Part shown: positions 17,022 to 36,396 of the stretch, piece after piece
Layout of the letters: each line of letters starts with the position of its first letter
How positions within the stretch are numbered: position 1 is the stretch's first letter
Origin: Planctomycetota bacterium
GTDB lineage: Bacteria > Planctomycetota > Planctomycetia > Pirellulales > Pirellulaceae
Direction: 5' to 3'
NCBI GenBank assembly: GCA_026692885.1
Contig: JAPLNJ010000351.1
Location: forward strand, 1 to 39,912
Length of the DNA stretch: 39,912 bases
The notes under the pieces: generated by a model
Told to the model about the DNA's origin: nothing
The model's input: only the letters and a program-made list of their open reading frames with translations
Databases searched by the model: none
Translations under genes and position numbers: made by a program

Positions 17022-20070
<3,049 letters not shown>

Positions 20071-21147: not shown

Positions 21148-21276
21148 CTACCGGCGGCGCCAACGCCGGCCGTGTCGGCCGACGTGGAATCCGCGGATAC
21201 TGCCGGTACGCTTGCCCGAGCGATAGCAGGCGTAGGCCACCCAGGCAACGACGGCCAAGACGATCAGGATTTCCAT
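21148..21276 (-). CDS. 42-residue single-span membrane peptide
   Basis: The ATG at 21276 follows GAAGGAGA at six bases, a strong ribosome site. The peptide starts MEILIVLAVVAWVAYACY, one membrane helix, and ends in a very basic tail rich in arginine, glycine and histidine (GRHGRRWRRR). It is the last gene of the leftward block, 55 bases after the 184-residue gene. I recognise no family. The positive tail would sit in the cytoplasm and could touch nucleic acid or phospholipid. Confidence 0.6.
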   Translation of the reverse strand: MEILIVLAVVAWVAYACYRSGKRTGSIRGFHVGRHGRRWRRR

Positions 21277-21331
21277 AAGGTCTCCTTCGAGGTTCTAATC
21301 AGCCAGTGGGTTGGACCGACGGAACAGCCGA

Positions 21332-21886
21332 CTACTCGTCAGCCACCGGCGGGATGGCCAGGGCGTCGCGCTCCAGTTGGGTCGGTTCATCGCCCAGCAG
21401 TTCCGCCACTTTGGACCAGAGGTCCTTGACCTGCCTCGGCGAGGTCGCGAGCCAAATCGCGTCCAAGAGGCTCTCGCGCTCGGCGCGCAGCTTCAGGATC
21501 TGGCGGCCCAAGTCGGTCTGGCCCAGCAGCTCGTCTTCGACCACGACCTTCCGCTTGTCGATGGCCTGATCGACGTCGTTGCTGTAGCGGCCGTAGTAGG
21601 AGCCGTCGTCGAGATCCTCGACGGCGACGCCCCGCACGACCGCCACCATCTCGCGCTCGATCCGCACTTTCTGCTTCTGGCACTCTTCTTCCTGCTTCTC
21701 GATGGTCTCCAGGCGCTGGGAGAGTTCGGCCAGTCCGAGACTCTGGAGCGTCTGCACGCGGGCCTCGCGGTTCAGTCGGGTGAACAGGCCGGGATCGGAA
21801 GCCTTGAGGACCTCGATCTTGCGTTCAATCCGCTTGGCGAGGCGGTCTTTCCAGTGTTCTTTCTCCGTGACGGTCAGTCCGGGCAT
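21332..21886 (-). CDS. Conserved-looking 184-residue coiled-coil protein, function unknown
   Basis: Starts MPGLTVTEKEHWKDRLAKRI, with AAGGA eight bases before the ATG. The protein is highly charged and helical. Residues about 10-85 are predicted coiled coil (HWKDRLAKRIERKIEVL, RLETIEKQEEECQKQK). A central segment with DDGSYYGRYSNDVDQAI follows, then a helical C-terminus (LRAERESLLDAIWLATSP). The codon pattern and clean start make it real. No family is recognised. It lies 73 bases after the clamp-like gene and may be a partner of that protein. Confidence 0.7.
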   Translation of the reverse strand: MPGLTVTEKEHWKDRLAKRIERKIEVLKASDPGLFTRLNREARVQTLQSLGLAELSQRLETIEKQEEECQKQKVRIEREMVAVVRGVAVEDLDDGSYYGRYSNDVDQAIDKRKVVVEDELLGQTDLGRQILKLRAERESLLDAIWLATSPRQVKDLWSKVAELLGDEPTQLERDALAIPPVADE

Positions 21887-21959
21887 GGGTCGATCCTTGT
21901 ACCAGGGAGGTCAATTGATGGGTGTAACTGACGTGTGTTGGCTCCGAGCGAGTCTTCGG

Positions 21960-23477
21960 TCAGGCGGCGTCGAGGCCCTGGAGTTGCTGGAGCGAGCTGA
22001 GCGTGGAGCGGACCAGCTTGAACTGCCGCTGGTGCTGCTTGAGTGCGGTGGACAAGGTGCGCAGCTTGGCATCGGCCTCGCGCAGCGCCGTCCGCGCGCC
22101 CTCGACCAGGGACGCCAGATCCCCGTTCGTGGCCGCTTCGGGTTGTTCGCGGTCTTTGCCGCGGACGGACTGCTCGGCGGCGGCGGTGGTCGTTTTGCGG
22201 TCGGTGGAGTTCTCGGACATGGGTGGTTCCTTGCGTAATGAGTCGGCAGGTGGTTTCAATTCGGTGTCCATCTTGCCCGGTGCGGTAGCACCGCCTTGGC
22301 TGCGGTCCGGCCGCCTCCGGTTCTTGGTGCGAGCCACGCCGGTGGTGGACGGTTCGCCGCCGGGTGCCGCGACGGTAATCGCTTTGGCGGACGGCTTGAT
22401 GGCAGAATCAGGTTCGAGGACGGCCCACAGGTAGTGGCGGGCTTCGTCGCTGCACTGGACGGGGGCGTTGGCGGCGTAGAACAGCAATTCCCGAAACCCG
22501 AGCCGCAGGGCGCGGGCCAGGTACCGGCGGTCCGTGCTGATCCGCAGGGGATCGCCGATGCGTTCGGACTGACTGAGCAACAGCTCGGTCGGTTGGGGTT
22601 GGTCGTCGCCGCGGACGCGGATGGCGATCTGCCCGTTCATGTCGAGCGTGATAGCGCGGTAAGCGTCGTCGTTGCCGGGCAAGCGCGGCAGCGACTGGTC
22701 GAGGAACTGCGCGTCGGCTGGCGCGACCTGCAGCCGAGCCACCGCGCCGGTGGGCGACTGGAGGTGGTCCGCGACTTTGGGGAACCGCAAGTCCTTGCCC
22801 AGCTTCACGTGGTAGAGCCAGGGTCCAATGCGGACCGCCAGCCATTCCTCGGTCTTGCCGATGGCGATCGCGGTCGGCTGGATGTCTTTGTGTCCGTACA
22901 GGGTGCTGCGCGGCACCAAGACTTTGCCCTGCCACGGGAAACGGAAGCCGGTCTGCACCAACACTTGCCGGCTGTCGGTGGCGCAGATGGTGCCGGAGTC
23001 ACCGCACATTTCCAGATGGTCCAGGGCGAACCGGATCGAGGCCGCCTCAGCCGTTTCGCTGGCATCCCGCAGAGCGGTCAGCAAGGACGCGGGATTGTCG
23101 GTCATCGACTCGGGCGGTGCCGGAAAGTCAGCCAGTTCGGCCGCATCCGGGGGTGTGTAGCGCATCACCACTGGAACGCTGGCATCGTGCCAAGTGGCGA
23201 TCAGATCTCCATCCGCTTGCCGTTCGATGGAGACGACTTGATCCGAGCGGCCTTCGCAGTCCGCCAACAGCTCGCCAGGAACCAGGATTTCATCGGCCGG
23301 ACAATCTCCCGGCACCGAGCGTTCGATGGCCGCCATGCCGCTCTTCGAGCGGATGGTCAGGCCCTGTTGATCGGCCCGGAACAACACCGCGGGACAGCGT
23401 CCGCGCGGCGACGTTCCGAGCGCATGGCGAAAGACGGCCCGCACTTGGCGGGCCAGATGGCGTGTGAGGGTGATCAC
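21960..23477 (-). CDS. Highly diverged sliding-clamp (DnaN)-like protein with helical C-terminal tail
   Basis: 505 residues from the GTG at 23477, chosen because GAGG lies nine bases upstream; the open frame extends further but overlaps the neighbouring gene. The order of elements follows a beta clamp. RFALDHLEMCG (149-159) aligns with RYALGGVLLEM of the chromosomal DnaN, CATDSRQVLVQ with GTDGRRLAKM, then VLVPRSTL with IVPTRSM. LYHVKLGKDLRFPKV lies where clamps have SRLVEGRFPRW, and YLWAVLEP (349-356) lies where DnaN ends YVVMPLA. Residues ~360-420 are a disordered linker and the last ~60 a coiled coil. An internal ATG at 22220 with AAGGA seven bases upstream could also give an 86-residue tail protein. 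Clamp assignment is by eye from motif order; identity is low. Confidence 0.6.
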   Translation of the reverse strand: MITLTRHLARQVRAVFRHALGTSPRGRCPAVLFRADQQGLTIRSKSGMAAIERSVPGDCPADEILVPGELLADCEGRSDQVVSIERQADGDLIATWHDASVPVVMRYTPPDAAELADFPAPPESMTDNPASLLTALRDASETAEAASIRFALDHLEMCGDSGTICATDSRQVLVQTGFRFPWQGKVLVPRSTLYGHKDIQPTAIAIGKTEEWLAVRIGPWLYHVKLGKDLRFPKVADHLQSPTGAVARLQVAPADAQFLDQSLPRLPGNDDAYRAITLDMNGQIAIRVRGDDQPQPTELLLSQSERIGDPLRISTDRRYLARALRLGFRELLFYAANAPVQCSDEARHYLWAVLEPDSAIKPSAKAITVAAPGGEPSTTGVARTKNRRRPDRSQGGATAPGKMDTELKPPADSLRKEPPMSENSTDRKTTTAAAEQSVRGKDREQPEAATNGDLASLVEGARTALREADAKLRTLSTALKQHQRQFKLVRSTLSSLQQLQGLDAA

Positions 23478-23572
23478 AATGCAGATCCTCAAAGAAGTCG
23501 ACACACGGGGCGCATCCAGCTCGCTCCGCAGGCGAGCGAGCTGACAGGGCGAGATCAAACAATCGCAGCGGT

Positions 23573-23767: not shown

Positions 23768-23818
23768 AAGGCATCCTTCCGGCGAAAAAGGCACACAGTC
23801 ACGGGGGGGAAACAACAA

Positions 23819-23841: not shown

Positions 23842-23884
23842 TGGGAACGCAGAACAAAGGAGACAGGGTTTGCGGCGCTCCCGC

Positions 23885-24139
23885 TTAGGCCGGAGCGTCC
23901 GCAGTCAACAGCCAATACCTCCGCAACCAGTCGACTTCGGCAGTCAACGCTTCACTGCGCAGAACGAATGGCCCCAGGACGGGTCCATCCACGGGCGACA
24001 GATCCGCCTGCCATTGGCCCTGGTCGGTCGGCTCCACATGCGAGGCCCGGCGGATCGTGACCTGCCCAAGCGGCGACAGATCGAGGGTCTCGTCGTACAG
24101 ACAGAGCAGGGACCCGTCGGTCTGGACGACCAGTTCCAT
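23885..24139 (-). CDS. 84-residue protein of unknown function
   Basis: Starts MELVVQTDGSLLCLYDETL; the ATG overlaps the upstream stop as TGATG, so translation is coupled to the DUF3150-like gene. The sequence alternates short strands (RIVRASHVEP-type, QWQADLSPV, LGPFVLRSEAL) and ends with a helix EVDWLRRYWLL. This suggests a small beta-rich fold. No known family is recognised. Tight coupling implies it works with its neighbour. Confidence 0.7.
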   Translation of the reverse strand: MELVVQTDGSLLCLYDETLDLSPLGQVTIRRASHVEPTDQGQWQADLSPVDGPVLGPFVLRSEALTAEVDWLRRYWLLTADAPA

Positions 24140-25101
24140 CAGGCTGCCTCCCGTTGCACGGCTGGCCGCCGGAGGATGTTGCGACGAGGGCGATCGATCA
24201 TCAGCGCGTCCAGCGAGCTTTGGACCTCGGCCAGTTCGCTGGCCACGGTCTGCCGCAGCACTTGGTTGTTGCGCAGCGACTGCGGCTCGACACCTTGGAC
24301 GATCTGCTCGGCTTGGGATACCAATTCGTCCAGCTCTTGGTTGGAACGGACATTGAGCTGGCGGAAGCGGCGGAAGAATTCGATCAGGTTCTCGATCGTG
24401 GAGTCGCGGAAGACCTTGGGCTTATTGTCGTTCTGGCCCGTGAGCCGCTCGGTCAGATGCTCGACCAGGCCGGTCAACTCGCTGACGAAAGCTTGCTCCG
24501 CCAACTGCACGGCCTCGTCGAACCGGGCGGCGACCCGCTGGCACTCCTCTTCGTACAGAGCCGGATTGAGGTGCTCCAAATAGGACGGGGGTTCGATATT
24601 GGGAAAATCCCACGTCACCCCGAACAGGCCGCGGAGCGATTCCGGGTAGTCGCTCGGATTGAACAGGCTGCCGAGCCGCTCACGCGCCGCGGACTTGAGC
24701 TCGACGTAGTGTTCGTCCAATTGCGCGACGGCCTCGTCGAGGTCCTGGCGCAGTTCGCTCATACGCCGGTTGAACTCGTCGATCTTGTCCTGGCGGATGA
24801 GCCGGACGCTGGCTTCCGGGTAGGGGAGCGACATTGACTGCCAAGTGGCCACGAGTTGGTGGCGGACGTTGGTCACGGCGAGGAAGGCCGGATGGCGGGT
24901 GTTCAACAGTTTCTTACCCGCGGACAAGTACTGGCCTTCGGCTCCGAACGTGTCGGCGGCTTGGGCCTTCTGTTCGGGCGTGAGGGTTTTGCGCACGCCG
25001 AACCAGCAGAAGGCCACGCGGGCGGCCGCCATGGTGGCGCGGAGCCGTTGGGCCGGAGAGGTGGAGGGACGGACAACCGGTTGGTCACGGACAGTAGTCA
25101 T
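24139..25101 (-). CDS. Helical protein resembling DUF3150
   Basis: 320 residues; AGGAGAT lies nine bases before the ATG. The layout recalls DUF3150: a conserved opening FCWFGVRKTLTPEQ, a GKKLL segment, then a helix-rich region with EFNRRMSELRQDLDEAV and LDEHYVELKSAARERL. A central WDFPNIEPPSYLEHLNP and a long charged helix pair follow. DUF3150 genes tend to sit beside MoxR/CobS-type AAA+ ATPases in mobile elements, and here a Ycf46-type AAA+ gene is two genes upstream. The family match is from memory of its pattern and needs a profile search. Confidence 0.55.
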   Translation of the reverse strand: MTTVRDQPVVRPSTSPAQRLRATMAAARVAFCWFGVRKTLTPEQKAQAADTFGAEGQYLSAGKKLLNTRHPAFLAVTNVRHQLVATWQSMSLPYPEASVRLIRQDKIDEFNRRMSELRQDLDEAVAQLDEHYVELKSAARERLGSLFNPSDYPESLRGLFGVTWDFPNIEPPSYLEHLNPALYEEECQRVAARFDEAVQLAEQAFVSELTGLVEHLTERLTGQNDNKPKVFRDSTIENLIEFFRRFRQLNVRSNQELDELVSQAEQIVQGVEPQSLRNNQVLRQTVASELAEVQSSLDALMIDRPRRNILRRPAVQREAA

Positions 25102-25232: not shown

Positions 25233-25544
25233 TCAGTCCAGTTCCCAGTGAGCCTTCAGCTCTTCCTGGGTCTGGAACCGTTCGCAGCCGATTGTGGCGG
25301 GCGGGAAGATGGCTTGGAGGGCGACGAAGTAGTCGCCGTCGTGGCGGCCCAAATAGAAGCCGAAATCCCCGTCGCGCACGTCGTCGCCACACGGGTAATC
25401 GCGGCCAATGCGGCGCACTTTAAGCAGGTGCGAATCTTCGCCGCCGAAGTCAGAACGATCGTGCCGGGGTTTCAGACGCCCGGTCATGGGTGTGGCCAGT
25501 GCCAGCGCGAGTGCCTGGCTGGCCGCCTCCGTCGAGATTGTCAT
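25233..25544 (-). CDS. 103-residue protein of unknown function
   Basis: Starts MTISTEAASQALALALATPM with AAGGGA about nine bases upstream. The C-terminal half is well structured: DGDFGFYLGRHDGDYFVAL and TQEELKAHWELD. An acidic stretch DYPCGDDVRDGD sits in the middle. It lies between the AAA+ and DUF3150-like genes. No family is recognised. The preceding hairpins at 25581-25627 separate it from the ATPase gene. Confidence 0.65.
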   Translation of the reverse strand: MTISTEAASQALALALATPMTGRLKPRHDRSDFGGEDSHLLKVRRIGRDYPCGDDVRDGDFGFYLGRHDGDYFVALQAIFPPATIGCERFQTQEELKAHWELD

Positions 25545-25649: not shown

Positions 25650-27149
25650 TCAGTTGCTGAGCGGACTGCGGGCCACCTTGCGGCGGGAACTGGGTTGGCT
25701 GTCCTTGCGGGTGTAGATGCCCGGTTGATCGGCGTTCAGGCATCGCCCGCTGGCCCAGGTGCGCAAACGATCCACCGACTCGGCGGCCGTGACCGCCACG
25801 GGCACGACGTTCTGCGCGGCTTGCACCAAGGGCACGTCCAACAGGGCGGACAACCGGCAGCAGGCGCGAATCTCGGCTCCGGTCCACTGTTCATCGTTGG
25901 GCAGCTTCTGCTCCGGGTCCAACTCGAACTGTCCCAGATAGAGGTTCCAGATCGCGCGTCGCTGCTCGGCATTGGGCAGGTTCAGAAAGAAAACGCCGTC
26001 AAAGCGTTCCGCACGCGCGAACTCCGGTGGCAACTTGCTGATGTCGTTGCACGTGGCGACCAAGTACACGTCCGATGTGTGATCGTTCATCCACGTGAGC
26101 AGGGAGCCAAAGAGCCGCGCGGACACGCCGGAGTCGGTCTGCCCGGAATTGGCCACGCCGCTCAACGCCTTCTCGACCTCGTCGCAGAACAAGATACAAG
26201 GCGACATGGCGTCAGCGATCCGCAACGCCTGCCGGATATTGGCCTCGGTGGAGCCCACCAGCGAACCCATGAGCGAGCCGATGTCGAGCACCAGCGTGGG
26301 GCGGCTCGTCTCGCGGCCGAGCGACTTGGCAAAAGCACTTTTGCCGGTTCCGGGAACCCCGAGTAACAGCACGCCGCGCGGCCGCTTGAGCGGGTTGCTG
26401 CGGCCGGGCTGCAGCAGCGACCGTTTGCAGAACGCCTTGAGGGACGCCAGGCCACCCAGGCTGCTGAAGTCCTCGCTGCCGCGATACAGCGACAACAGGC
26501 CGGACTTCTTGAGCATCCCGCTCTTCAATTCCCAGACCGCCTCCGGCGTGACCCGGCTGTGACGCACGAGCGACAGACTGAAAGCCGCTTCCGCTTCGTA
26601 GCGAGTCAGTCCCGCCGCCGCGTCGAGGACCGTGTCCAACTCCGTGCCCGAGGGCAGTTCATTGTCCTCCGTCGCAATGCCGCGCGCGATCTGGTGCAGT
26701 TGCTCACGATCGGGGAGCTGGTGCTCGATGACCAGGAACAGCTTCTCTAATTCCGTCGGGATGGCCACGACGGGCGAGAGGATCACGATGAACGTGCGGT
26801 TCTGCTTTCCCGCGGTGATCTGGTGGATCAGCGCTTGGACGATTTCGGGCGACTGCAGAAAGCGGTGGAAGTTCTGGAGGAGCAGCAGTGCCGAGCCATC
26901 GGCGCTGGCTAGCGCGTTCACCGCGCGGATCGCGGCCAACGGATCTTGGCCACCCGCGTCACCGGCAGCCGGCGCCGGCTGCCCAGGGATGTGCAGGCCG
27001 CATTCGATGTCCCAGGCCGCCAGGCGCCATCCTTCCTGGCGGCAGAGTTGGGCGATTTCGGCCGTGGCGTCGGTGTGCTCATGACTCTCGATCCAGATGC
27101 CCGTGAAACAGGCCCGGACGAGTTCGGCGAGTTTGCCTGCCAATTGCAT
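25650..27149 (-). CDS. Ycf46-like AAA+ ATPase
   Basis: 499 residues from the ATG at 27149, where AGGAG precedes by seven bases. The N-terminal domain begins like plastid/cyanobacterial Ycf46 (LAELVRACFTGIWIESHE), where this region is a degenerate ATPase. A linker has LTRYEAEAAFSLSLVR and LKKSGLL, both Ycf46 hallmarks. The C-terminal AAA+ module has Walker A GVPGTGKS (264-271), Walker B ILFCDEVEKA (D323/E324) and a sensor-1 asparagine in ATCND. Ycf46 is linked to photosynthesis regulation in cyanobacteria. Here it forms a block with DUF2997 and Ycf35-like DUF1257 in a non-photosynthetic context, so a remodelling role on another substrate is likely. Confidence 0.85.
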   Translation of the reverse strand: MQLAGKLAELVRACFTGIWIESHEHTDATAEIAQLCRQEGWRLAAWDIECGLHIPGQPAPAAGDAGGQDPLAAIRAVNALASADGSALLLLQNFHRFLQSPEIVQALIHQITAGKQNRTFIVILSPVVAIPTELEKLFLVIEHQLPDREQLHQIARGIATEDNELPSGTELDTVLDAAAGLTRYEAEAAFSLSLVRHSRVTPEAVWELKSGMLKKSGLLSLYRGSEDFSSLGGLASLKAFCKRSLLQPGRSNPLKRPRGVLLLGVPGTGKSAFAKSLGRETSRPTLVLDIGSLMGSLVGSTEANIRQALRIADAMSPCILFCDEVEKALSGVANSGQTDSGVSARLFGSLLTWMNDHTSDVYLVATCNDISKLPPEFARAERFDGVFFLNLPNAEQRRAIWNLYLGQFELDPEQKLPNDEQWTGAEIRACCRLSALLDVPLVQAAQNVVPVAVTAAESVDRLRTWASGRCLNADQPGIYTRKDSQPSSRRKVARSPLSN

Positions 27150-27185: not shown

Positions 27186-27377
27186 TCAACCGGCGTGCTG
27201 TTGTTGCTGAACGGTGGTGGCCGCATGGTGGAACTCGGCCGTGAGTTGTTCCTTGGTCCGCTGGCCGAGCGCCTGCTCCAGGAAGCGGCTGGCTTCCTGG
27301 CACGTTGCTCCGGCGAACCCTTTGGTTTGGACGCGGGCCTCGCCTTGCGGGCTGATGATGATCTCGATGACCTTCAT
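27186..27377 (-). CDS. DUF2997 protein
   Basis: 63 residues starting MKVIEIIISPQGEARVQTKG and continuing FAGATCQEASRFLEQALG, which matches the DUF2997 pattern closely. The ATG overlaps the DUF1257 stop by four bases (ATGA). The C-terminus ends in a glutamine-rich QQQQHAG. DUF2997 is regularly found beside DUF1257 and a Ycf46-type ATPase; the molecular role is unknown. Confidence 0.85.
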   Translation of the reverse strand: MKVIEIIISPQGEARVQTKGFAGATCQEASRFLEQALGQRTKEQLTAEFHHAATTVQQQQHAG

Positions 27378-27745
27378 GCGGCACCTCCGGCGACCTGGAC
27401 GGTCAGCTTGATGCTGCCATCGGCCAAGGCTTGCTCGGTCACGACATGGCCCTTGCGGCGCGCTTCGATTTTGGTCTTCTCGACGGCATAACTCTGCAAG
27501 AACACGTCGAGGTACTTCTGTTCACCCCAGTGGCCTTTGAAATTGTCAAAGTGCACCTGCCCGGTGCCGACATCGCAGACGACGGGATAACGCCACTTGG
27601 GCAGCTGCACGGCGAGCCCGGTGGCCTGGTTGGTGAACAACTTGTGGGTGCCCTGAACGGGCTGCGAAAGTCGCAGGCGTTGGCACGCCGCTTGGATCGC
27701 CGCGGGATCGCGGATTTGGACTTTGAGCGAGACGATGTGGCTCAA
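27374..27745 (-). CDS. Ycf35-like protein (DUF1257)
   Basis: 123 residues from a TTG at 27745. The start is chosen because the family opens MSHxxxxKxQ and here the TTG gives SHIVSLKVQIRD, with AAGAGGAGA six bases upstream. Conserved features follow: KWRYPVVCDVGTG and a C-terminal segment ending LTVQVAGGAA. DUF1257 includes Ycf35 of plastids. The overlap with the DUF2997 start shows coupled expression. Longer frames starting at 27832 ignore the strong ribosome site. Confidence 0.85.
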   Translation of the reverse strand: MSHIVSLKVQIRDPAAIQAACQRLRLSQPVQGTHKLFTNQATGLAVQLPKWRYPVVCDVGTGQVHFDNFKGHWGEQKYLDVFLQSYAVEKTKIEARRKGHVVTEQALADGSIKLTVQVAGGAA

Positions 27746-27801
27746 GTTGAGTCTCCTCTTGCTGGCGGTGGTGAAGAAGCGAAGCGATCTGGGCAAACGG
27801 C

Positions 27802-27960
27802 TCAGGACCGTGTGGCGATCTGCGCTGCCCACAGTCCGACACCGATGCCCAAGAGCACGATCGGCCAGTGGGACACGCTTCCGGTCACAACGCTGATGCA
27901 GAAGGCACTGCCGATGATCGCGGTGACGAGTCCGAATAGGCCGCGGTTGGAGTCACGCAT
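27802..27960 (-). CDS. 52-residue membrane peptide
   Basis: Starts MRDSNRGLFGLVTAIIGSAF and has two hydrophobic stretches (LFGLVTAIIGSAFCISVV and WPIVLLGIGVGLWAAQ) separated by a short turn, so a two-helix hairpin. GGAG lies ten bases before the ATG. It sits between the sigma-like gene and the DUF1257 gene. No family is recognised. It may be a membrane anchor for the AAA+ module. Confidence 0.6.
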   Translation of the reverse strand: MRDSNRGLFGLVTAIIGSAFCISVVTGSVSHWPIVLLGIGVGLWAAQIATRS

Positions 27961-27991: not shown

Positions 27992-28609
27992 TTAGGCGCG
28001 CGAGGAGTCGCCCTGGAACTCCCGCCACGCCGTTTCCAGTTCGCGGCGGGTTTGCGAGATACGACCCGGGCTGACCCCGAACTTCCGTGCCGTGGTCTTC
28101 GTGGTTTCGTTCTTGGCCAGGGCCTCCGCGACGCGGCGTTTGTGCTTGGGCAGCGTGTCGAACCAGTCCGCAATATCGATGCGGGCTGCCGCCGTATCGG
28201 AGGGGCCCGCGTGACGGTCCTCGAGGAGCACTTCGCGCCAGCAGCCCTCACGCTCATCGAAGTGGTCGAGCCTTTCGACCCGAAAGTGTTTCATCCGCTG
28301 CGCGTAACCGGACGACACGTCATGCACACAGAGCTTGGCACCGACGCGGCGGCCATCGCGAATCTGCTTGATGGCGAACTGTGCCAGCGGCGTCGCCTGA
28401 GCTACGTCGATCAGGCCACGGTCCACGAGTCGGACCAAGGCGGCCCAGCAGTTGGCGACGACCTCGGCGATCAGTTCCTCGCGCTGCTCCGCGCCTTCGC
28501 GCCGGAAGGCGAAGCGCGCTTGTTCCTGAATCTGGGGCAACAGGGACAGGAACTTCGTTGTGCACGCACACACAGCGGCCTGTCGCATTTTATTGGCCTT
28601 AGCGATCAT
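27992..28609 (-). CDS. Sigma-factor-like HTH protein
   Basis: 205 residues; GAGGAGAT lies about nine bases before the ATG. The N-terminal part is helical, with a REELIAEVVANCWAALVRL segment that resembles sigma region 2. The C-terminal part has WFDTLPKHKRRVAEALAK followed by TARKFGVSPGRISQTRREL, a typical region 4 helix-turn-helix. It is diverged from standard ECF sigma factors. Sigma-like proteins of this kind often occur in planctomycete mobile regions. It may control the island's own genes, but no matching promoter was identified. Confidence 0.7.
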   Translation of the reverse strand: MIAKANKMRQAAVCACTTKFLSLLPQIQEQARFAFRREGAEQREELIAEVVANCWAALVRLVDRGLIDVAQATPLAQFAIKQIRDGRRVGAKLCVHDVSSGYAQRMKHFRVERLDHFDEREGCWREVLLEDRHAGPSDTAAARIDIADWFDTLPKHKRRVAEALAKNETTKTTARKFGVSPGRISQTRRELETAWREFQGDSSRA

Positions 28610-28714: not shown

Positions 28715-29287
28715 CTAATCGGACACCGGCTGCTGTTCCTCCGAACTGCCCAGGGGGTCATCGGGGTCGCGCGGCGGCTGGTCCAGTAGCGCGTGCGGTG
28801 AGTGGGCCGGCAGTAGTACCGGGTGATCGCTGATCAGATCCTGCACCAGGAACTCCGCCAGGGCCGCCTCGGCTTCGCCATCGAGGGGCGGACGACGCAA
28901 CAGGGCCCAGCACAACAACAGGGGTAGCAGGCAAGCCAGGATCAGCCCGATGCTGGTGATGGCCGCAGCGATCAGCGGATCGCGGTGGCGCTGTTCGGCG
29001 ATTTGGCGACGATCCGTTTCCAATTGGTCGCGTTGCCGACCGATTTCGGCTTGGTCTTGTTGCAGATCACGCTGCAAAGCGGCCAGCTCAGTGCGCGCTT
29101 TGGAATCCGATTCGACCAACTGGCTGGCGCCGCGTGCCACGTCGGCCTGCATCTGAGCTAACTGGCGCTGTTGCTCGGCCGATTGTTTGGCCGCCTCGCG
29201 GGCGGCTTTGGCCAGCTCATCTTCCTCGCAACCGCAGAGTGCGGCCAACAACAGACTGGCCAGAAGTACGAACGGGAGTCTATTCAT
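28715..29287 (-). CDS. Lipoprotein with coiled coil and C-terminal membrane segment
   Basis: 190 residues. The N-terminal signal MNRLPFVLLASLLLAALCGC ends in a lipobox LCGC with C20 as the acylation site. Residues ~25-100 are a glutamine- and arginine-rich coiled coil (QRQLAQMQADVARGA, LQRDLQQDQAEIGRQRDQLE). A second hydrophobic segment lies at about 105-130, followed by an acidic tail with PDDPLGSSEEQQPVSD. The start overlaps the 47-residue gene by eight bases. Function unknown. Confidence 0.7.
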   Translation of the reverse strand: MNRLPFVLLASLLLAALCGCEEDELAKAAREAAKQSAEQQRQLAQMQADVARGASQLVESDSKARTELAALQRDLQQDQAEIGRQRDQLETDRRQIAEQRHRDPLIAAAITSIGLILACLLPLLLCWALLRRPPLDGEAEAALAEFLVQDLISDHPVLLPAHSPHALLDQPPRDPDDPLGSSEEQQPVSD

Positions 29288-29423
29288 GGTGCATCGGTCT
29301 CCATTTGTCGAGAAGGCGACGAAGCAAGCCCTGCAAGGCGCGACGGAGTCGGACCTCGCGGACCAGGGCCAGGACGAGCACGACGGCCAGGGTCGAACTG
29401 GCCAACAACACGGGCATAGTCAT
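29280..29423 (-). CDS. 47-residue membrane peptide
   Basis: The ATG at 29423 follows GGAG at nine bases. The peptide is one hydrophobic helix (MPVLLASSTLAVVLVLALV) followed by a basic helix (REVRLRRALQGLLRRLLDKW). Its stop overlaps the start of the lipoprotein, so the two are translationally coupled. A longer frame to 29711 reads through repeat DNA and is not supported. Confidence 0.55.
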   Translation of the reverse strand: MTMPVLLASSTLAVVLVLALVREVRLRRALQGLLRRLLDKWRPMHHE

Positions 29424-29634
29424 GCGGCAACTCCGGTGGTGAGGAGGGGACTGTGGGGACGCGGCGATGCGACGGAGGCGACGCCGAATTGTGCGCTCGG
29501 CGCGGGTCTCCGACCCCGCCGTGACCGCCGACCGAAGGTCTCCCGTGATCCCGGTGACCTTCCGTCGGTCGGGTGGCTCGGTAAGGAGACCGGCCACGGC
29601 GCCGGTTCTTCGGCAGCAGGCTCGGCGATAGGAA
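29424..29634. repeat. Repeat-bearing gap after tniQ
   Basis: No gene. The block GCGCTCGGCGCGGGTCTCCG...CCGCCG near 29497-29525 recurs inverted near 36552-36580, beyond the other side of the transposition genes. A second inverted pair CGACCGAAGGTC/GACCTTCCGTCGGTCG lies at about 29528-29572. These are dispersed intergenic repeats of the genome found inside the island. Confidence 0.7.
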
Positions 29635-31584
29635 CTACGCGGCAGCGCGCCGGCGTGGTGCGGCGCGGAGAAGCTCAACGTCCGCGCGTCGGTACAAGTA
29701 CAGGCCGGCATAGGGTGTGACGCGGTTGGGGAAGACGGGGAGAATCCGTCCGGCGTCCTGCCAGGACCTGAACGTCGTGCCGGCGATGCCCAGGACGCGA
29801 AGGGCCTCCGCGCGTAGGCAATAGGTCTCGCGAAACCGTCCTATCTCGGCAGTCGTGGCCATTCGCGCCCGACCGACCTGTTGTGTTTCGAGCAGGCCGG
29901 CGTCAATCCATCTCTTGAGCACGTCGACCTTCACGGGGCGTCCCGGGAAGAGAATCTTGGCGAGCCGATGTATGGGATATCCAAGAAGCTCGTCCCGACG
30001 GAGTCGCACATCCGGCAAGACGGTCTCCACGTCGTGCTGGGCAACCACCAAGCCGTGAAGCCGCTGTTCAGGATTCACCAGGCGCGCGGCGACTTTGCCG
30101 GCTTGGATCAGGGCCAGCAGCTGGCTGAGCGTTAGACCCGTTGGGCCGAAGATCCGAGTAGCTTCCCGAAGCGAGATCCACGAAGCACTGCGATCTTCGC
30201 TGGTCGGAGTTTCCCGGAACAATGCTTCCAACGAGGACAGGGAACTGACCGGAATCCGCCAGCCGTGGTTGATCCGTACGACTCGAGGCAGCACGCCGTC
30301 GTGGATCAGGTCGCGCATGGCCGTTGTGCCGATTCCCAAGCGACTGGCAGCTGTGGTAACACCCACGGCACTCTGCAACTCACGCCGCAGGTTCTCCACC
30401 GACTCGCGCAGGACTAATCCCACCGATCGACCACGGTTGCCTGCCGGCTGAACTTGGCCGGTGAGAATGCCTTGCTGGGTCAGCTGAAAGATGGCCCCAT
30501 TTCGCACCTTCAATACGGTCGCCGCTTCGGTCTGGGTGATCCAGGTCCGCTCGCGTAGCAGTTGGCGATCTTCGGGGCGTTGGAAGAGGCAGACTTTGCG
30601 GCTGAGATGACCGGCGGCGTAGCGCCCCAATAGATATTGTCTCAGCGCCTGGGCTGGGGCGGGAAAGCCGACATCCTCCAGTCGGGTCGCTTCCCGTAGT
30701 AGCAGGCCAAATCGTAAGGCCATGCCTGTGGACGAGTTGCGGTGTTTGGGGACCTGCTGGAACGCGTCGAGGAACTCGTAGAGCCGATCGGGCCAATGGA
30801 CAAGCATCTCGGCGGCGGCCAGCCAGGCAATGGAGTCGTCCCCTGACTCCGACCCTAATTCCAGTCGCTCGCGGGTCTGCAGAATCCATGCGGGCGTCTT
30901 CCCAGCCGCCATCGCCAGCCGCTCCATCCACCAACACAGGGCCGCCGCGGACATCTCAGGTAGGCAGCTTATGCCCTGTACGAATAAGGTATGAAGTGTC
31001 TCCACCAACTCTATCGCCGGGGCACCCAGGCAATTTGGCTCCACATCGACGAGCGACTTCCCGCAGCGGCAGACGGATACGGCTGGCCGCTCCGGTCTGA
31101 GCGGTCGTCGGCAGGCCGGACAGAGGGCGATAAGCGAACATCGATGTTCACGGCAAACGGGCAGCGCGTACAGCGACCATGCCAAGCGTTCGTACGGAGC
31201 GGCGTCCTGCCTCAAGCAAGCCGGGCAGACTGAGAACTCCCCCCGCGCAAAGTATTTGAGCGTGGTCTTCGAATCACAGAGCGACGCCGTTTGCGACGGC
31301 TCCCCCGGGAACACGAGAGTTGGCGCAAGACGGTTGACGGTCATGCTCAGCAGCATCTCCGGTGACTGCCGGAGGAGCATAGCCAAAACGTCCAGAATGG
31401 GACCGGGGCGGAGAAAATTGACGTTTGCCTGGACCTTGCCGACGTCGACAAGCAGAGCACGTAGCCGGTGTGGTCCCTCGTAACACATGGCAGCCGCCGT
31501 GCGGCGTACCAGGCTGATGAGCGACTCTCCCGGGAGCGGCACGACGCGAGCAGGTAGAGCCCTGACGGATGGAATGACGTTCAT
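29635..31584 (-). CDS. tniQ: TniQ/TnsD-type target-selection protein with a tandem HTH array
   Basis: 649 residues. The N-terminal TniQ domain has the GESLISLVRR opening and zinc ligands C120/C123, C144/H147, C155/C158 and C172/C174. The C-terminal half contains about five helix-turn-helix or MerR/excisionase-like modules (roughly 349-400, 408-455, 470-522, 536-585, 590-640), each followed by a wing-like arginine- or glycine-rich segment. In Tn7 such a protein reads the attachment site and recruits TnsC. The ATG overlaps the tnsC stop by four bases. The modular array suggests recognition of a long specific site rather than a guide RNA. The target itself is not known. Confidence 0.88.
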   Translation of the reverse strand: MNVIPSVRALPARVVPLPGESLISLVRRTAAAMCYEGPHRLRALLVDVGKVQANVNFLRPGPILDVLAMLLRQSPEMLLSMTVNRLAPTLVFPGEPSQTASLCDSKTTLKYFARGEFSVCPACLRQDAAPYERLAWSLYALPVCREHRCSLIALCPACRRPLRPERPAVSVCRCGKSLVDVEPNCLGAPAIELVETLHTLFVQGISCLPEMSAAALCWWMERLAMAAGKTPAWILQTRERLELGSESGDDSIAWLAAAEMLVHWPDRLYEFLDAFQQVPKHRNSSTGMALRFGLLLREATRLEDVGFPAPAQALRQYLLGRYAAGHLSRKVCLFQRPEDRQLLRERTWITQTEAATVLKVRNGAIFQLTQQGILTGQVQPAGNRGRSVGLVLRESVENLRRELQSAVGVTTAASRLGIGTTAMRDLIHDGVLPRVVRINHGWRIPVSSLSSLEALFRETPTSEDRSASWISLREATRIFGPTGLTLSQLLALIQAGKVAARLVNPEQRLHGLVVAQHDVETVLPDVRLRRDELLGYPIHRLAKILFPGRPVKVDVLKRWIDAGLLETQQVGRARMATTAEIGRFRETYCLRAEALRVLGIAGTTFRSWQDAGRILPVFPNRVTPYAGLYLYRRADVELLRAAPRRRAAA

Positions 31585-32642
31585 TGACGGCCTCCGAGGT
31601 AGTCTGTCGCCGTGGCCGGCCGGCGTTTAGCACCGCTGGCGCGAGGCGACAAGCCGACACCGGCGGCGCGGGTCTGGTCGGCGGCCTGCACGCGATCCAA
31701 GGCGGCTTTGTCCAGGTCGCCGATGAAGGGGTTCGATTGCTCGGCCAGCACGCGCTGTTGCGCGAGACAACGCTCGAAGATGCGCGCTAGGTCGTCCATC
31801 TCGATTTGTTCGTTGCCACGCTGTAGCGCTTCGGCCGCAGCCCCGCGCACCAGCGTCATCAAGTAGTCCGGCACCCCGCGGCTGGCCAGATAGAACCGGC
31901 CGGCCAAGTCGGCGTTTGCCAAGCTGGATGTTTCGGCCAGCGGAAGCGTCTCGTCGAGCTTCTTCAGCATGCCACAGAACTCCCGCTGACCTTGTGGCGT
32001 GCGCCACGTGAAGCAGCGCAATGTCAGCCGCTGCTTGAAGCGGCGTTCGGTGTGCTCGGCGCTCAGCACGTACTCGGCTTCGGGCATGCCGCAGACGACC
32101 ACCGGCAGGCCCGTGTTGACGATCAGCACCTTGAGCCACTGTGACGCCTTGGTCATGACCTTGGCCCGGTCGACATCGAACAGGTGATGAAACTCGTCGA
32201 GCACAATCAACTCGACGCCGCAGTGTTTGAGTAACCGGGCGGCACGGTTGGTCAGACTCTCCACCGTGCCGCTACTCCAGGCGGGATCACCCAGGGCCAG
32301 GAGGAGATCCGCGGCAATGCCCTCGGGCCGGGCATCGGGCTGCAGAGTGACCCTGAGGACCGGTTGGCAGTTGGCCGTGTCGGTCTCGCGTGGCGGATGC
32401 AGGCGGCGGTAGTGGTCCACCACGCTCGTCTTGCCGACGCCCGAGGAGCCGAGGATGGCGCCACAGACGGGCTCCCCCGCTTGCTTGCTGGACTGATGAC
32501 AGCGTTCCAGCAACGCCACGGCTTCACGGAATCGCGGATGCAGGACGAGCAGCTTATTGGCGTACGCGATGCGTTCGGCCGTCGGCCGCTGCCGCCATTC
32601 GCGACGGTCTGTGGGTGACTTCGAGCTGGTACCTCCGGACAT
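31581..32642 (-). CDS. tnsC: TnsC/TniB-type AAA+ transposition regulator
   Basis: 353 residues. Walker A is GSSGVGKTS (65-73), Walker B ELIVLDE (144-150) followed by FHHLF, and the sensor region contains VVVCGMPEAEYVL. TnsC oligomerises on target DNA with ATP and links the TniQ/TnsD complex to the TnsAB transposase. The length is short for Tn7 TnsC (555) but matches TniB-sized and CAST-type TnsC. It is coupled to tniQ and separated from tnsB by 77 bases holding a strong hairpin. Confidence 0.9.
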   Translation of the reverse strand: MSGGTSSKSPTDRREWRQRPTAERIAYANKLLVLHPRFREAVALLERCHQSSKQAGEPVCGAILGSSGVGKTSVVDHYRRLHPPRETDTANCQPVLRVTLQPDARPEGIAADLLLALGDPAWSSGTVESLTNRAARLLKHCGVELIVLDEFHHLFDVDRAKVMTKASQWLKVLIVNTGLPVVVCGMPEAEYVLSAEHTERRFKQRLTLRCFTWRTPQGQREFCGMLKKLDETLPLAETSSLANADLAGRFYLASRGVPDYLMTLVRGAAAEALQRGNEQIEMDDLARIFERCLAQQRVLAEQSNPFIGDLDKAALDRVQAADQTRAAGVGLSPRASGAKRRPATATDYLGGRQ

Positions 32643-32709: not shown

Positions 32710-32719
32710 AGGTGACGAT

Positions 32720-34777
32720 TTACAGATCGGGACCGGCCACTTCCCAGTCATCCACGTTGACCTCGGACGGGTCCCCGGGATGGGCGTCGGCGTTCCCGAT
32801 GGATTCGGGAGCGCCGGGAACCAGAGTCTCTGCGCCGGGCGCCGCCGACTCGCCGGGAGACGAGCCTTCTCCGGACCCGTTGTCGGATTCCTCCGGCTCA
32901 CCCGTGAGGGAAGGGGCAGGTTGAAGGAAACGGGCTGCCCGCACGCGGCGTTGGCGCGAGGGTCTTTGCATGGCCGCCTCGACCACGTCGCGGATGGCGT
33001 TCCGCCCAGCCGCCAGATTGAGCAGATGATCGGGCTGATCAAATCGCTCGCGGATCGCCCGTTTCAACACCCGCCACTGATACTCGGTCAGGCCTTTCAT
33101 CGCCGGGTCCACCGTGGAAGCTTTGAGGTAGGTGTTTTCCATGTGGATCGGGTTCAGCACCCACACCTCGCCCAAGTCCCAGGGGTTGTAACGCACGGCG
33201 ATACGGTCAGCGTCCAAATTGTGACTGGCCAGTTCGGACCGCAGGGCCATCAGCTCATCGCTGGTGTAGAACATGCCGCCCAGTTCGATGCCGCGGGGCG
33301 ACAGCGTTCGGTCGGCCCGCTTGGACAGGAGCACCAGCAGCTGGTCGGGTGTGGCCGGGATGCACGGCGGAAACACGGCCGCGCTGTCTTGCCACATCTC
33401 CAGACGAGTCCCCGGCGCCGTGGGGTGTTTGCTGGCCGCGTACACATCGACCAGATGGATGTGGATGATTTCCAGCAGGGCCTCATACGTGATCAGCGGG
33501 CCGTCGTCCGGTCGATAGTCGGCCCGTTCGACCCAACTGCGAAACGTCCGTCCCGGCAGCGCCGATGCCAACTGGTCATTTAGCCCATCGAAGAACGATT
33601 CCACGGTGCCTTTGAAATGCGGCGTCCGCGGCGGGTTGAAGTCCAGCTCGATGCCCAGTTGAAAGGCGGCATCCTCCAGGTCCTTGCTGGTCAGGTCAGG
33701 CCCACGGTCCGAGACCAACTTTTCCGGAAGTCCAAAGCAGGGCCACGAGCCTTGGACGCGTGGATAGCGCTCCTTGAGATAAGACTTGGGCAGAATGGCA
33801 TGCCGCAGGGCCTCCATGAGCACGGCATACGAGGGCGGCTCGAACTCCAGACAGAAGCCGACGACCATGCGGCTGTAGTAGTCGATGAGCAGGGACAGCC
33901 ACGGCTGGCCGATGGGACCGGCATCCGTGCCGACGACGACTTTCAGCGGGCTGTGGTCCATCTCGACCCGCTGCAAAACGCGCGTGGACAATTGCTGCGG
34001 TGACGTGGGGGCGTGGCGGCGGTCGGCGATCTTCCGGCCCCAGCGCTGTCGGTCGACTTCCCACGGATCAAGCTGGCCGATGCGCCGGGCGATGGCCCGG
34101 CTGAGGGCCGATTGACGCGGTACCGGAACAGCTTGGGCGGCCGGCAGCCGTGAGTTGAGCCGCTGGAGGTCTTCCAGCACACGGCGCGTGACGGCGGAGA
34201 TGGGCCGACGAGCCTTGGTCAGGTAGACGGTCTGGATGGCTTCGTCGACGAGCTTGCGAATCTGAGGGTGCTTCTCCAGGATCGCCGTTTTGCGTACTCC
34301 ATTTTTCCGCCGCCGTCCCTCGTTGCGTGGCACGAGGGCCATCCGATCCTTGCCGGCCTGCAACCACGCATGGAAGTAACGCCGAAGCGTTCGTGCCGAG
34401 AAGCACTTGTCGTCGCGTTCCATTTCGGCTGCCCGGTTGGCGTAGTCACTTTCCTGAGGCACGAGGCCTGACTGCGTGAGTGGTTCGATCGCCTGCCAGC
34501 GGCGCTGCAGCACGCGTTTCTGCTGCGCGGTCAACTCGTGAATAGGCGCGGGTTTGGCAGGTGCCGGTTTACGTTGGGGTGCTTGTGCTTCATCGCTCGC
34601 GAACCGTAACCGGCCGGCCGAGTAGTGGGCGAGCAGTTCTTCTTGCGAAAACTCCTGTTCTACGAGGAACTTGACATCTTGGGCGACGAAACGGTCGGGG
34701 GCGAGTTGGCGGACCACACGCCAGGCCCGCCCGTCGAGCAGCCATTCGGTGCCCACACCGAGTCGAACGGGTCCCAT
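32720..34777 (-). CDS. tnsB: TnsB-type DDE transposase
   Basis: 685 residues. The strand-transfer transposase that binds the element's ends and joins the 3' ends to target DNA. The N-terminal DNA-binding domains are followed by an RNase-H fold with a complete triad: D274 in VEMDHSPL, D357 in LVSDRGPD and E393 in FKGTVESFF, the last two 35 residues apart. A Mu-transposase-type C-terminal beta barrel follows (VRYNPWDLGEVWV), then an acidic, glycine/serine/proline-rich tail of ~70 residues, the region that contacts TnsC. GGAGGTG lies eight bases before the ATG, inside tnsA. Length is close to Tn7 TnsB (702). Confidence 0.93.
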   Translation of the reverse strand: MGPVRLGVGTEWLLDGRAWRVVRQLAPDRFVAQDVKFLVEQEFSQEELLAHYSAGRLRFASDEAQAPQRKPAPAKPAPIHELTAQQKRVLQRRWQAIEPLTQSGLVPQESDYANRAAEMERDDKCFSARTLRRYFHAWLQAGKDRMALVPRNEGRRRKNGVRKTAILEKHPQIRKLVDEAIQTVYLTKARRPISAVTRRVLEDLQRLNSRLPAAQAVPVPRQSALSRAIARRIGQLDPWEVDRQRWGRKIADRRHAPTSPQQLSTRVLQRVEMDHSPLKVVVGTDAGPIGQPWLSLLIDYYSRMVVGFCLEFEPPSYAVLMEALRHAILPKSYLKERYPRVQGSWPCFGLPEKLVSDRGPDLTSKDLEDAAFQLGIELDFNPPRTPHFKGTVESFFDGLNDQLASALPGRTFRSWVERADYRPDDGPLITYEALLEIIHIHLVDVYAASKHPTAPGTRLEMWQDSAAVFPPCIPATPDQLLVLLSKRADRTLSPRGIELGGMFYTSDELMALRSELASHNLDADRIAVRYNPWDLGEVWVLNPIHMENTYLKASTVDPAMKGLTEYQWRVLKRAIRERFDQPDHLLNLAAGRNAIRDVVEAAMQRPSRQRRVRAARFLQPAPSLTGEPEESDNGSGEGSSPGESAAPGAETLVPGAPESIGNADAHPGDPSEVNVDDWEVAGPDL

Positions 34778-35508
34778 GTGATCACACCTCCGGGATAGAT
34801 AAGGGTCTGGTCTGAGATGGGCTCCTGCCGCGGATCAAAGCTCAGGTCACCAACGGCCAACAGGTGGAAGATGTGCATCCGTGCGCGGGTCGAATCGGAC
34901 TGGTCAGCTTGTCGGCACAGATCCGCCAGCGGCACGCCGCGTTCGGAAACCAGACGTTGAACCGTAAGCAGCAGAGCGGCGTCCGTGCTGGCCTGCCGGT
35001 AGCGACCGACCAGTTGCACGTTGCTCAGCAGCGGTCCTGGAAGCAGTTCCTTCTCCGTGACCAGGTGAAACGCCCAGCCCTCGGTGGCGGCGTATTGCCG
35101 GGCCACCGAGAGCTTGCGTTGCGCGAGAGGTTTTGCCAACCGATCGGAAGGCTTGACCTCGACGAGCCGCTTCTGGCCGCTGGTCATCTCCACCAGGAAA
35201 TCGGGCTCGATGTAGCTGCAACCCGCGTTGGCTTCCTTGCGGGGCCGCGACTCCGGCGCGGCTTGGAGCAACTGGATGTGCAGGGTGTTGCCCTGCTCAC
35301 GCCACTGGTACCAGATGGTCAGCGGTTGCTCTTGGATGTGAGTCACTGCCGGACACGCCACCAGGATCGTAGCGGCCGCGCCTTCCAGTTGACCTTGGCA
35401 CCGGATCGACCGTCCTTGTCGCGGGCACGGGACCAAGAGAAACGACCCCGGCGTGCGCCGCCGCAGGTGAAATGTAGAGACGACTTGGTTGCGAGGGTCT
35501 GCGGACAT
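34660..35508 (-). CDS. tnsA: TnsA-type endonuclease
   Basis: 282 residues from the ATG at 35508 (GGGAG upstream). TnsA cuts the 5' ends of the element so that excision is complete and insertion is cut-and-paste. The PD-(D/E)XK residues are E60 in THIQEQPL, D103 in IEPDFLVEM, and E117/K119 in RLVEVKP, matching E63/D114/Q130/K132 of Tn7 TnsA. The C-terminus is a helical DNA-binding domain. The 3' end overlaps the tnsB start by 118 bases, so the last ~39 residues are encoded in a second frame of tnsB, an unusually long overlap. Confidence 0.87.
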   Translation of the reverse strand: MSADPRNQVVSTFHLRRRTPGSFLLVPCPRQGRSIRCQGQLEGAAATILVACPAVTHIQEQPLTIWYQWREQGNTLHIQLLQAAPESRPRKEANAGCSYIEPDFLVEMTSGQKRLVEVKPSDRLAKPLAQRKLSVARQYAATEGWAFHLVTEKELLPGPLLSNVQLVGRYRQASTDAALLLTVQRLVSERGVPLADLCRQADQSDSTRARMHIFHLLAVGDLSFDPRQEPISDQTLIYPGGVITWDPFDSVWAPNGCSTGGPGVWSANSPPTVSSPKMSSSS

Positions 35509-35556
35509 GGGAGGCTCCCTTGGAAGGGCGAACACGAGGATGGCGCAGCCATTCCG

Positions 35557-36396
35557 CTACGCCGCCGCGCGTTGGCGACGCGGTGCCGATGGCTTCGACT
35601 CCGGCGTTGCCCGTGCCACGGTCAGCGCCGGCTTGCCGTTCCGCTTCGACGCCTTGCCATTGGCGCCCCGCAGCTTGGCCTCGACCAACTGAGCCAGCCG
35701 GGCATCCGTGTCATCCCGCAGTTCCTGCCAACGGATCGGCTCGTCGATGGATTCGATCCAGCGGGTGAGCGCGTCGACCTCCTTCCGGTCGATCTGCACG
35801 GCATCCTGATCCACCGGCATCGCGGCGCGGCGTTGGGCCGGATCGAACAGCGTCTGGACGAGCAGCACTTCTTCCGCGGGGTAGACGATCACCAGTTGAC
35901 GCTTGCTGGAAAAGACGGTCCGACCGAGCGCCCACTTGTCGGCGCGCAGCAGGGCTTGGCGGATCACGACGAAGGGCTTCATTGCCGCCGGATGGGCCGG
36001 CGCGAGGTACAGGCTGCGCCCGGCCAGCAGCGTCAGGTCGAATTCGGTCGGGGAGAGGAAGTGTTCCAGGTGGATGGTCTTGTCGTCGGTCGGCTCCAGC
36101 GTCGCCAGGTCTTCCTCGGTCAGCGCGACGCACTGCTCGGCGCTGTAGGGATAGCCTTTGGCGATTTGGTCGGCCGGCACGCGGCCGTGCTTGGGGCAGC
36201 ACTTGTGATACTCGATGTGTTCCCCGCAGCCGGCGTGGAGTTGGCGCAGGGAGACGGCGGCGGTGGAACTGATCGTGGGATAAGCCTTGACGGGGACACA
36301 GCAGGAGCCGAGCCGCAGTTGGCCAGACCAGCTGGCGCGGCTGGCGGGTGGCGCGGTGGCCACGGGCGGCGGATCAACGAGCAGGGTGGTGGACAT
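35557..36396 (-). CDS. ku: Ku-family DNA end-binding protein
   Basis: 279 residues; GGAGGAG lies six bases before the ATG. Bacterial Ku forms a homodimeric ring that threads onto double-strand DNA ends and normally recruits LigD. Matching features: ASWSGQLRLGSCCVPVKAY opening, LRQLHAGCGEHIEYHKCC (a Cys/His-rich loop), QCVALTEEDLATLEP, then AMKPFVVIRQALLRADKWAL and the LLVQTLFDP strand. The basic C-terminal tail (~245-279) is typical. The residues after ~20 are colinear with mycobacterial Ku. The gene lies 48 bases upstream of tnsA and leads the operon. No ligD is present in the window. Confidence 0.9.
   Translation of the reverse strand: MSTTLLVDPPPVATAPPASRASWSGQLRLGSCCVPVKAYPTISSTAAVSLRQLHAGCGEHIEYHKCCPKHGRVPADQIAKGYPYSAEQCVALTEEDLATLEPTDDKTIHLEHFLSPTEFDLTLLAGRSLYLAPAHPAAMKPFVVIRQALLRADKWALGRTVFSSKRQLVIVYPAEEVLLVQTLFDPAQRRAAMPVDQDAVQIDRKEVDALTRWIESIDEPIRWQELRDDTDARLAQLVEAKLRGANGKASKRNGKPALTVARATPESKPSAPRRQRAAA

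Follow-up and report, generated by a model that had tools for sequence, protein, structure and literature searches.

Introduction

Tn7 inserts at glmS, and its TnsE protein uses the host clamp. The Gam protein of phage Mu is a relative of Ku, PiggyMac is the transposase of Paramecium, and type II CBASS and Bil are examples of bacterial ubiquitin-like conjugation systems. In Paramecium, Ku is coupled to a DDE transposase, according to the accessible text of PMC4148214. For bacterial Ku-LigD non-homologous end joining (NHEJ), the accessible text of PMC9638933 reports that the minimal Ku C-terminus of B. subtilis and P. aeruginosa suffices for the interaction with LigD and stimulates ligation. 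Here, we describe a Tn7-like transposon of planctomycetes that has a Ku gene in its core and ends 10 nt downstream of the gyrB stop codon. It was analysed on contig JAPLNJ010000351.1 of the Planctomycetota assembly GCA_026692885.1, whose 39,912 nucleotides are called the window in the following. The element also carries a block of genes around an AAA ATPase.

Results

Ku belongs to the conserved core of the transposon

The Tn7-like gene set of the window lies on the minus strand and was above the Pfam cut-off in all four members: the endonuclease TnsA (34660..35535; N-terminal domain 1.7e-13), the DDE transposase TnsB (32720..34777; rve and Mu-transpos_C), the AAA ATPase TnsC/TniB (31581..32642; TniB 1.9e-26) and TniQ, a predicted TnsD-type target selector with an HTH domain (29635..31584; TniQ 6.5e-17, HTH_17 2.6e-9). 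The residues D274, D357 and E393 of TnsB, the likely catalytic triad, were invariant across 37 aligned sequences. On the same strand, Ku (35557..36396) matched the Ku family of Pfam at 2.7e-31 and TIGR02772 with 170.5 bits (cut-off 150) over positions 1-233 of 259. Library scans of the window's open reading frames (ORFs) found no Cas family; no search aimed at CRISPR arrays was made.

Relatives of TnsB were scanned for, which gave 14 loci, 13 of them from planctomycetes and one labelled only 'bacterium'. A search of one planctomycete class found TnsB in 7 of 397 genomes and added the locus of G400; since only two candidates per genome were scored, the true count is at least 7. Ku linkage was then read at the 13 loci that reach far enough (11 of the 14 scanned loci, G400 and the window), and in all of them Ku was the next gene upstream of TnsA. 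In G013 and G251 as well, Ku was within about 1.5 kb of TnsB, the G251 TnsB being only 41% identical over a fragment. A Ku of any type was present in 5 of 98 genomes of the class (G009 among them), whereas all 14 TnsB genomes had one. Ku is rare in the class, and its linkage to TnsA is therefore not background. Thus, the transposon has a conserved core of five genes, Ku-TnsA-TnsB-TnsC-TniQ.

Transposon Ku differs from host Ku

The Ku proteins of transposons and hosts were compared in a tree from which the host Ku G031a and G031b (mis-cut ORFs) and a Ku fragment of G001 were left out. The two types split at 100/99. The match to TIGR02772 ended between positions 229 and 242 of 259 for the transposon-type Ku (14 and the window), whereas the 11 host Ku reached 259, and the stretch NLM(D/E)AL occurred in 6 of 9 host Ku but in none of 15 of the transposon type. 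The window Ku has the beta-barrel core domain; the conserved minimal C-terminal region is absent, the model match stopping at 233. Transposon-type Ku was found in 13 of the 14 TnsB genomes.

LigD was surveyed in the 14 related TnsB-bearing hosts, a set that the window's own genome stands outside. Its ligase and polymerase domains were over the cut-off in four, the same four that have a full-length host Ku. No LigD over the cut-off was found in the other ten of these genomes, which are of unstated completeness and mostly drafts. Together, the separate clade, the missing C-terminal end and the ten hosts without detected LigD point to a Ku that is dedicated to the transposon and independent of LigD. 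Judged from sequence, we regard it as evenly balanced whether Ku is such an end-binding protein, one that would work without LigD and hold or protect the ends made by TnsA/TnsB. Three points weigh against it. G011 yielded Ku of the host type alone, the transposon type being missing there because the element is cut off inside tnsB; the draft state of the genomes bears on the LigD count; and the Ku core of M. tuberculosis alone still binds LigD, as the accessible text of PMC9638933 reports.

This last result, the intact core domain of the transposon Ku and the four hosts with LigD would also fit an ordinary NHEJ role, in which Ku recruits the host LigD and reseals the donor site after cut-and-paste excision. 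We consider this rather unlikely, given the ten hosts with no LigD over the cut-off, the full-length Ku that the other four already own, the early end of the model match in the transposon Ku and its lack of the NLM(D/E)AL stretch.

The transposon is inserted just downstream of gyrB

As read from the ORFs, dnaA-, dnaN- and gyrB-like genes stand just ahead of the block in the window. The transposon end (20081..20150, plus strand) begins at 20081, 10 nt past the stop codon of gyrB (17374..20070, plus strand), and consists of a TGGTNNNNGACA terminus and GACAYAAA-type repeats with a spacing of about 22 bp, which are diverged in the window. The same arrangement was observed in G400 and G009: in all three, a TGGTNNNNGACAYAAA-type sequence (GACACTAA in the window) follows the gyrB stop, repeats about 22 bp apart come next, and the block converges on gyrB. 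The distance from the end to the gyrB stop was 10 nt in G400, G009, G001 and G010, and 11 nt in G007.

Two patterns were derived for the end. The stricter one, TGGTNNNNGACAYAAANNNTG, gave 19 matches in seven genomes and none in the reversed control. The looser one, which allows 8-13 nt, gave 52 rows in 44 of the 397 class genomes, and is set apart from its control only by gyrB position and spacing. With a spacing of exactly 10, 12 of 13 rows were at gyrB (G005, G008, G009, G010, G012, G188, G195, G239, G251, G305, G399 and G400), G039 being the sole exception. At other spacings, this was the case for one of the 25 rows examined (G335, spacing 12), with 14 rows left out. Taken together, the end motif follows gyrB at 10-12 nt in at least 13 of the 397 class genomes, and also in G001 and G007. 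These results show that insertion is site-specific, just downstream of gyrB. In G005, G012 and G251, as in the window, G400 and G009, the gyrB end is adjoined by the AAA block or by its o24139/o23885 part; the block therefore has the Tns genes on one side and the gyrB-proximal end on the other.

Some observations weigh against this picture. The looser pattern alone was not enriched (52 rows against about 46 for the reversed control). Ends that face the Ku side were found in G002 and G007 only. None was seen in the window, and 100 kb of G400 and the initial 70 kb of the G009 contig gave none either; some copies may therefore be immobile. In G188, G195, G239, G305, G335 and G399 a gyrB end was present, but no TnsB or Ku was found. 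These six ends may belong to other elements, be remnants or have parts that are unassembled. The missing Ku-side ends and the fixed site beside gyrB would suit an island near the origin that is old, domesticated and no longer mobile and is kept for the function of the block. We doubt this, as the element has a patchy distribution (at least 7 of 397 genomes), adjacent element ends occur in G001 and G007, and the likely DDE residues of TnsB are invariant.

The adjacent ends stand back to back at C196:50886-50964 in G001 and at C181:19258-19302 in G007, signs of tandem insertion. In G001, ACCGTT is repeated beside gyrB and between the element ends, a possible duplication; the assembly breaks there.

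A gene block is inherited with the transposon and is also found without it

The block of the window follows tniQ on the minus strand. Behind lipo, which encodes a protein that looks by eye like a lipoprotein with a coiled coil (28715..29287; related genes at other loci), it comprises a DUF1257 (Ycf35)-like protein (27374..27832; Pfam 0.0053, below the cut-off with 17.4 of 22.2 bits), a DUF2997 protein (27186..27377; Pfam 1e-16), a Ycf46/Vps4-like AAA ATPase with an N-terminal domain (25650..27149; Pfam AAA 4.6e-27), the conserved helical protein o24139 (24139..25101; 320 aa) and the conserved o23885 (23885..24139; 84 aa). The order Ku-TnsABC-TniQ-lipo-DUF1257-DUF2997-AAA-o24139-o23885 was repeated in divergent relatives with 55-65% identical TnsB. 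It was broken by insertions in G002, G007 and L014, and lipo was not detected in G400. DUF1257 and DUF2997, with the AAA gene where the contig allows, follow tniQ at 12 of 13 informative loci; L005, L009 and L013 end too early to be counted. At L012, the Tns genes, lipo, a sigma-like gene and an E2/RING-like gene are followed by an end, with no AAA block.

Pairwise distances were correlated with those of TnsB in 9-11 elements (all p <= 0.003; host phylogeny not removed). The block AAA co-diverged with TnsB as closely as TnsC did (r 0.90 both); the values were 0.90 for DUF1257, 0.89 for TniQ, 0.87 for o24139, 0.83 for lipo, 0.80 for DUF2997, 0.79 for o23885, 0.66 for Ku and 0.52 for TnsA. Homologues of the AAA protein are numerous (5331 of 7999 scored candidates at E 1e-3). 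In the AAA tree, where the database proteins P0003 and P0005 carry the transposon label by indirect assignment, the transposon copies need 3 changes compared to 10.6 in shuffles, so transposon and block are old partners with few exchanges, and the copies do not form one clade. The gene block is real and largely inherited together.

The block AAA was found in 44 of 148 class genomes, in up to 7 copies each, and two of these genomes (G009, G010) have TnsB. We then analysed 20 loci from 11 genomes with no TnsB hits, five of the loci being from G148. All 20 hold DUF1257, DUF2997, AAA, o24139 and o23885. Ku, TnsA, TnsB and TnsC were absent from every one of them, and at two loci the C-terminus of TniQ gave a short match. 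The preliminary description of the region had proposed a single functional unit rather than random cargo, had suggested a comparison of genomes with and without tnsABC, and had named a constant separation of the Tns genes from the Ycf35/Ycf46 genes as the result that would contradict it. The two sets were together at 12 of the 13 transposon loci, and the recurring order and the co-divergence with TnsB argue against random cargo. The idea of a single unit was not supported: the block stood alone at all 20 transposon-free loci, and L012 has the Tns genes with no AAA block. The block is a separate module, long inherited with the transposon and also found without it.

A serine recombinase is near 5 of the 20 transposon-free loci by direct search and near 7 by ORF clustering, the L107 copy alone having been tested against Pfam. 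G148 carries five copies of the AAA/DUF1257 block (L103-L107); direct search places a large serine recombinase near L104, L105 and L107, and clustering groups L103 and L106 with these three loci. A PD-(D/E)XK nuclease of the Cas4/RecB-like type was seen near the block at L109, L110, L111, L113 and L114 by clustering, with Pfam applied to L114 only.

The block has a variable part

Next to o23885, the window encodes a DnaN (sliding clamp)-fold paralogue with a C-terminal helix (21960..23477, minus strand; start codon uncertain). It gave no Pfam hit. A profile from 10 sequences finds DnaN at 5.7e-9, and the predicted structure (mean pLDDT 79.7) matches beta clamps with a Foldseek E-value of 1.5e-21 and a TM-score to the target of 0.75. 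A DnaN-like clamp is beside 8 of the 20 transposon-free blocks and a ThiF-type E1 beside 5. Among the transposon loci, the clamp occurs in the window and G400 only and the E1 in nine. The E1 loci are L112, L114, L118, L119, L121, G001, G002, G004, G007, G009, G010, L006, L009 and L013. Several of them add a ThiS-type ubiquitin-like (UBL) protein and an E2/RING-like protein, and L119 adds a JAB protein. The E2-like protein with RING-like fingers was read by eye, and Pfam did not return such a name. In G239, a match to the clamp next to gyrB proved to be the host dnaN and was dropped.

The block sits among defence genes

The flanks of the transposon-free blocks were compared with PADLOC, scanning 121 of 164 flanking ORFs and, as controls from the same genomes, 105 of 247 ORFs; these controls came from windows at round coordinates, not random draws, in 9 of about 11 genomes sampled. 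At 1e-20, the flanking ORFs gave 154 models, a total that counts models and not proteins and includes E1/E2-type genes of variant blocks. The control ORFs gave 2 models, SspA and DndA, both from one cysteine-desulfurase-like protein. Among nine hand-picked proteins from 7 loci, matches were to GajA (5e-235) and GajB (5e-191) of Gabija, the M and S proteins of type I restriction-modification, DrmD, HmaB, PbeC and mad6; the remaining one matched a SIR2-type candidate, SIR2 being read by eye. Because the block sits among defence genes, an anti-phage or anti-element role is its likeliest one, and we lean slightly towards it.

Relatives of the block AAA on plasmids and phages were all below 60% identity, and one scan of viral contigs with the AAA protein confirmed no relative. 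The window AAA matched the phage family phrog_8638 over nearly its full length (8e-86), so viral homologues of the same build exist.

The case for an old partnership with a defensive block has its counterweights. The co-divergence figures carry no correction for host phylogeny. The 154 PADLOC models stand for many models and few proteins, each of the 25 listed matching one or two ORFs. Finally, the window block proteins that were tested had no specific PADLOC match, the AAA protein showing AAA-type similarity to IetA (1.3e-22) beside weak coiled-coil matches. No tested block protein of the window is a described defence protein, and defence is therefore guilt by association.

If the block were instead an accessory of transposition, acting as a remodeller or in replication-linked targeting through the clamp, its linkage at 12 of 13 loci, its co-divergence as tight as that of TnsC and a DnaN-like clamp that recalls TnsE of Tn7 would be accounted for. 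This is still less probable than the domesticated island: the block occurs with no Ku or TnsABC at all 20 loci fetched, 8 of them with the clamp, in defence-rich surroundings and in 5 cases near a serine recombinase; at transposon loci the clamp is confined to the window and G400, and E1 takes its place at nine; and L012 has the Tns genes without the AAA block.

An imperfect inverted repeat of 116 bp (77%) is found after tniQ (29493-29605) and before Ku (36466-36580; blastn 2e-19). It carries a dyad of GGTCTC motifs and may represent paired operators or a small mobile repeat. As transposon ends it was dropped, since it was absent from 10 other elements tested. Although it brackets exactly these five genes, a 7-kb Ku-TnsABC-TniQ transposon with the block outside it is highly improbable, because this repeat is missing from those elements, the relatives have different end arrays at a gyrB-fixed position, and the block is conserved beyond tniQ.

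Other genes and repeats of the window

From 36396 down to 21148, 18 ORFs lie on the minus strand, with neighbours overlapping by 118 (tnsA/tnsB), 4 (tnsC/tniQ), 8, 31, 4 and 1 bases, a tight packing that was seen again in relatives. The preliminary description had counted about seventeen genes on one strand, several of them overlapping, and had placed the boundary short of the gyrB-proximal end at 20081. Its labels for Ku, TnsABC, TniQ, DUF2997 and the AAA protein were borne out by Pfam and NCBIfam, and that of a clamp homologue by the profile and fold matches despite the lack of a Pfam hit. The DUF1257 label is weaker, its match being below the threshold. For o24139, a DUF3150-like label could not be upheld, as there was no Pfam match and the fold search gave nothing below E 0.19. 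A sigma-like protein (27992..28609, minus strand) had a weak, sub-threshold HTH match (5e-4) only, and has relatives in L012 and G002. Three tiny membrane peptides had also been named; they exist as ORFs on the minus strand, and 'membrane' is a reading by eye. They are a peptide of 52 aa (27802..27960; from the ORF listing), one of 47 aa that is partly conserved upstream of lipo (29280..29423) and one of 42 aa with a hydrophobic N-terminal stretch (21148..21276), similar by eye to a peptide beside the G400 end.

Two further minus-strand genes flank parts of the block. The protein o21332 (21332..21886; 184 aa, function unassigned) has relatives at other loci, upstream of Ku in L004 (fragment), L005, L006 and L013, and downstream of the block in L114 and G001 (fragment). 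An ORF of 103 aa (25233..25544) had no relatives at the transposon loci or transposon-free block loci compared. Behind the gyrB-proximal end, a Uma2-family nuclease-like cargo gene is on the plus strand (20290..20907; Pfam Uma2 5.4e-19; the ORF is listed as 20083-20907, and its start is uncertain). Beyond Ku, an AraC-type regulator and a GH106 rhamnosidase-like gene (36884-39795) may be cargo or host genes, a choice left undecided because the Ku-side end is absent from the window. Short tandem repeats were noted ahead of the dnaA-like gene (12701-12736 and 12802-12861) and, within gyrB, a 57-bp repeat towards the 5' end (17408-17590). Rfam and tRNA scans over the window were empty.

Discussion

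We think it probable that the locus as a whole is a gyrB-site Tn7-like transposon with Ku in its core, plus a separate and probably defensive block. In our reading, the transposon acquired a probable defence module, one part of which varies, a long time ago. In the mechanism that we propose, TniQ would recognise the 3' end of gyrB, and TnsA/TnsB would cut and paste the element under the control of TnsC. Ku may hold or protect the DNA ends that TnsA/TnsB make, independently of LigD and like Gam of phage Mu. In the block, the AAA ATPase with DUF1257 and DUF2997 would sense or remodel, and the exchangeable part would act, as the DnaN-like clamp in the window and as the ubiquitin-like E1/E2-RING/UBL set in others. 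A broader reading is held only tentatively: a Tn7-like branch in which Ku is a LigD-free core protein that protects or pairs the excised ends, and which has formed a lasting partnership with a modular defence system not described before (AAA/DUF1257/DUF2997/o24139); the output of this system would be either a sliding clamp of its own or a cascade of ubiquitin-like conjugation.

How cut-and-paste elements handle their own double-strand breaks is an old question, and a transposon with its own Ku, in hosts where no LigD was detected, makes it directly testable in bacteria. The transposon Ku could reveal a role for this protein other than end joining. For Tn7-type tools, gyrB would offer one more safe landing place, and planctomycete defence genes would often have the block, so far uncharacterised, as a neighbour.

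A literature text search, mostly of open papers, gave no report of Ku as a core protein or of gyrB as a site in Tn7-like elements; two of the papers listed contain both Tn7-like and gyrB as terms. In a term search over the accessible text of a survey of 6,549 elements (PMC8649781), gyrB, Ku70 and end joining were absent and a single host species was a planctomycete; the text of PMC10293859 had no match to gyrB, gyrase, Ku70, NHEJ, planctomyc or parE. For DUF1257, DUF2997 and DUF3150, three papers were found, which by title concern photosynthetic or soil bacteria, and in a separate search for Ycf46 none of the 12 papers listed contained that word.

Compared to the known systems, the element shares with Tn7-like transposons the genes for TnsA, TnsB, TnsC and TniQ, an array of repeated sites at the gyrB-proximal end and an insertion just downstream of an essential gene. 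It differs in that Ku is a fifth conserved core gene, the gyrB 3' end is the site, and an accessory AAA/DUF1257 block is present. Its Ku has the core domain of the Ku of bacterial NHEJ, but lacks the C-terminal end of the model and is tied to tnsA instead of ligD, in a group where ten of 14 hosts have no LigD over the cut-off. As with phage Mu Gam and the Ku-PiggyMac pair of Paramecium, a Ku-type protein is tied to a DDE transposase; here, however, the Ku gene adjoins tnsA in a bacterial Tn7-like element. With the bacterial ubiquitin-like conjugation systems, some relatives share a ThiF-type E1, a ThiS-type UBL, E2/RING-like proteins (by eye) and, at L119, JAB beside the block, whereas in the window the clamp-like protein is present and no such set was seen. 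None of the block proteins tested matched a described defence system, and the comparison suggests that the element is a variant of the Tn7-like transposons joined to an uncharacterised module.

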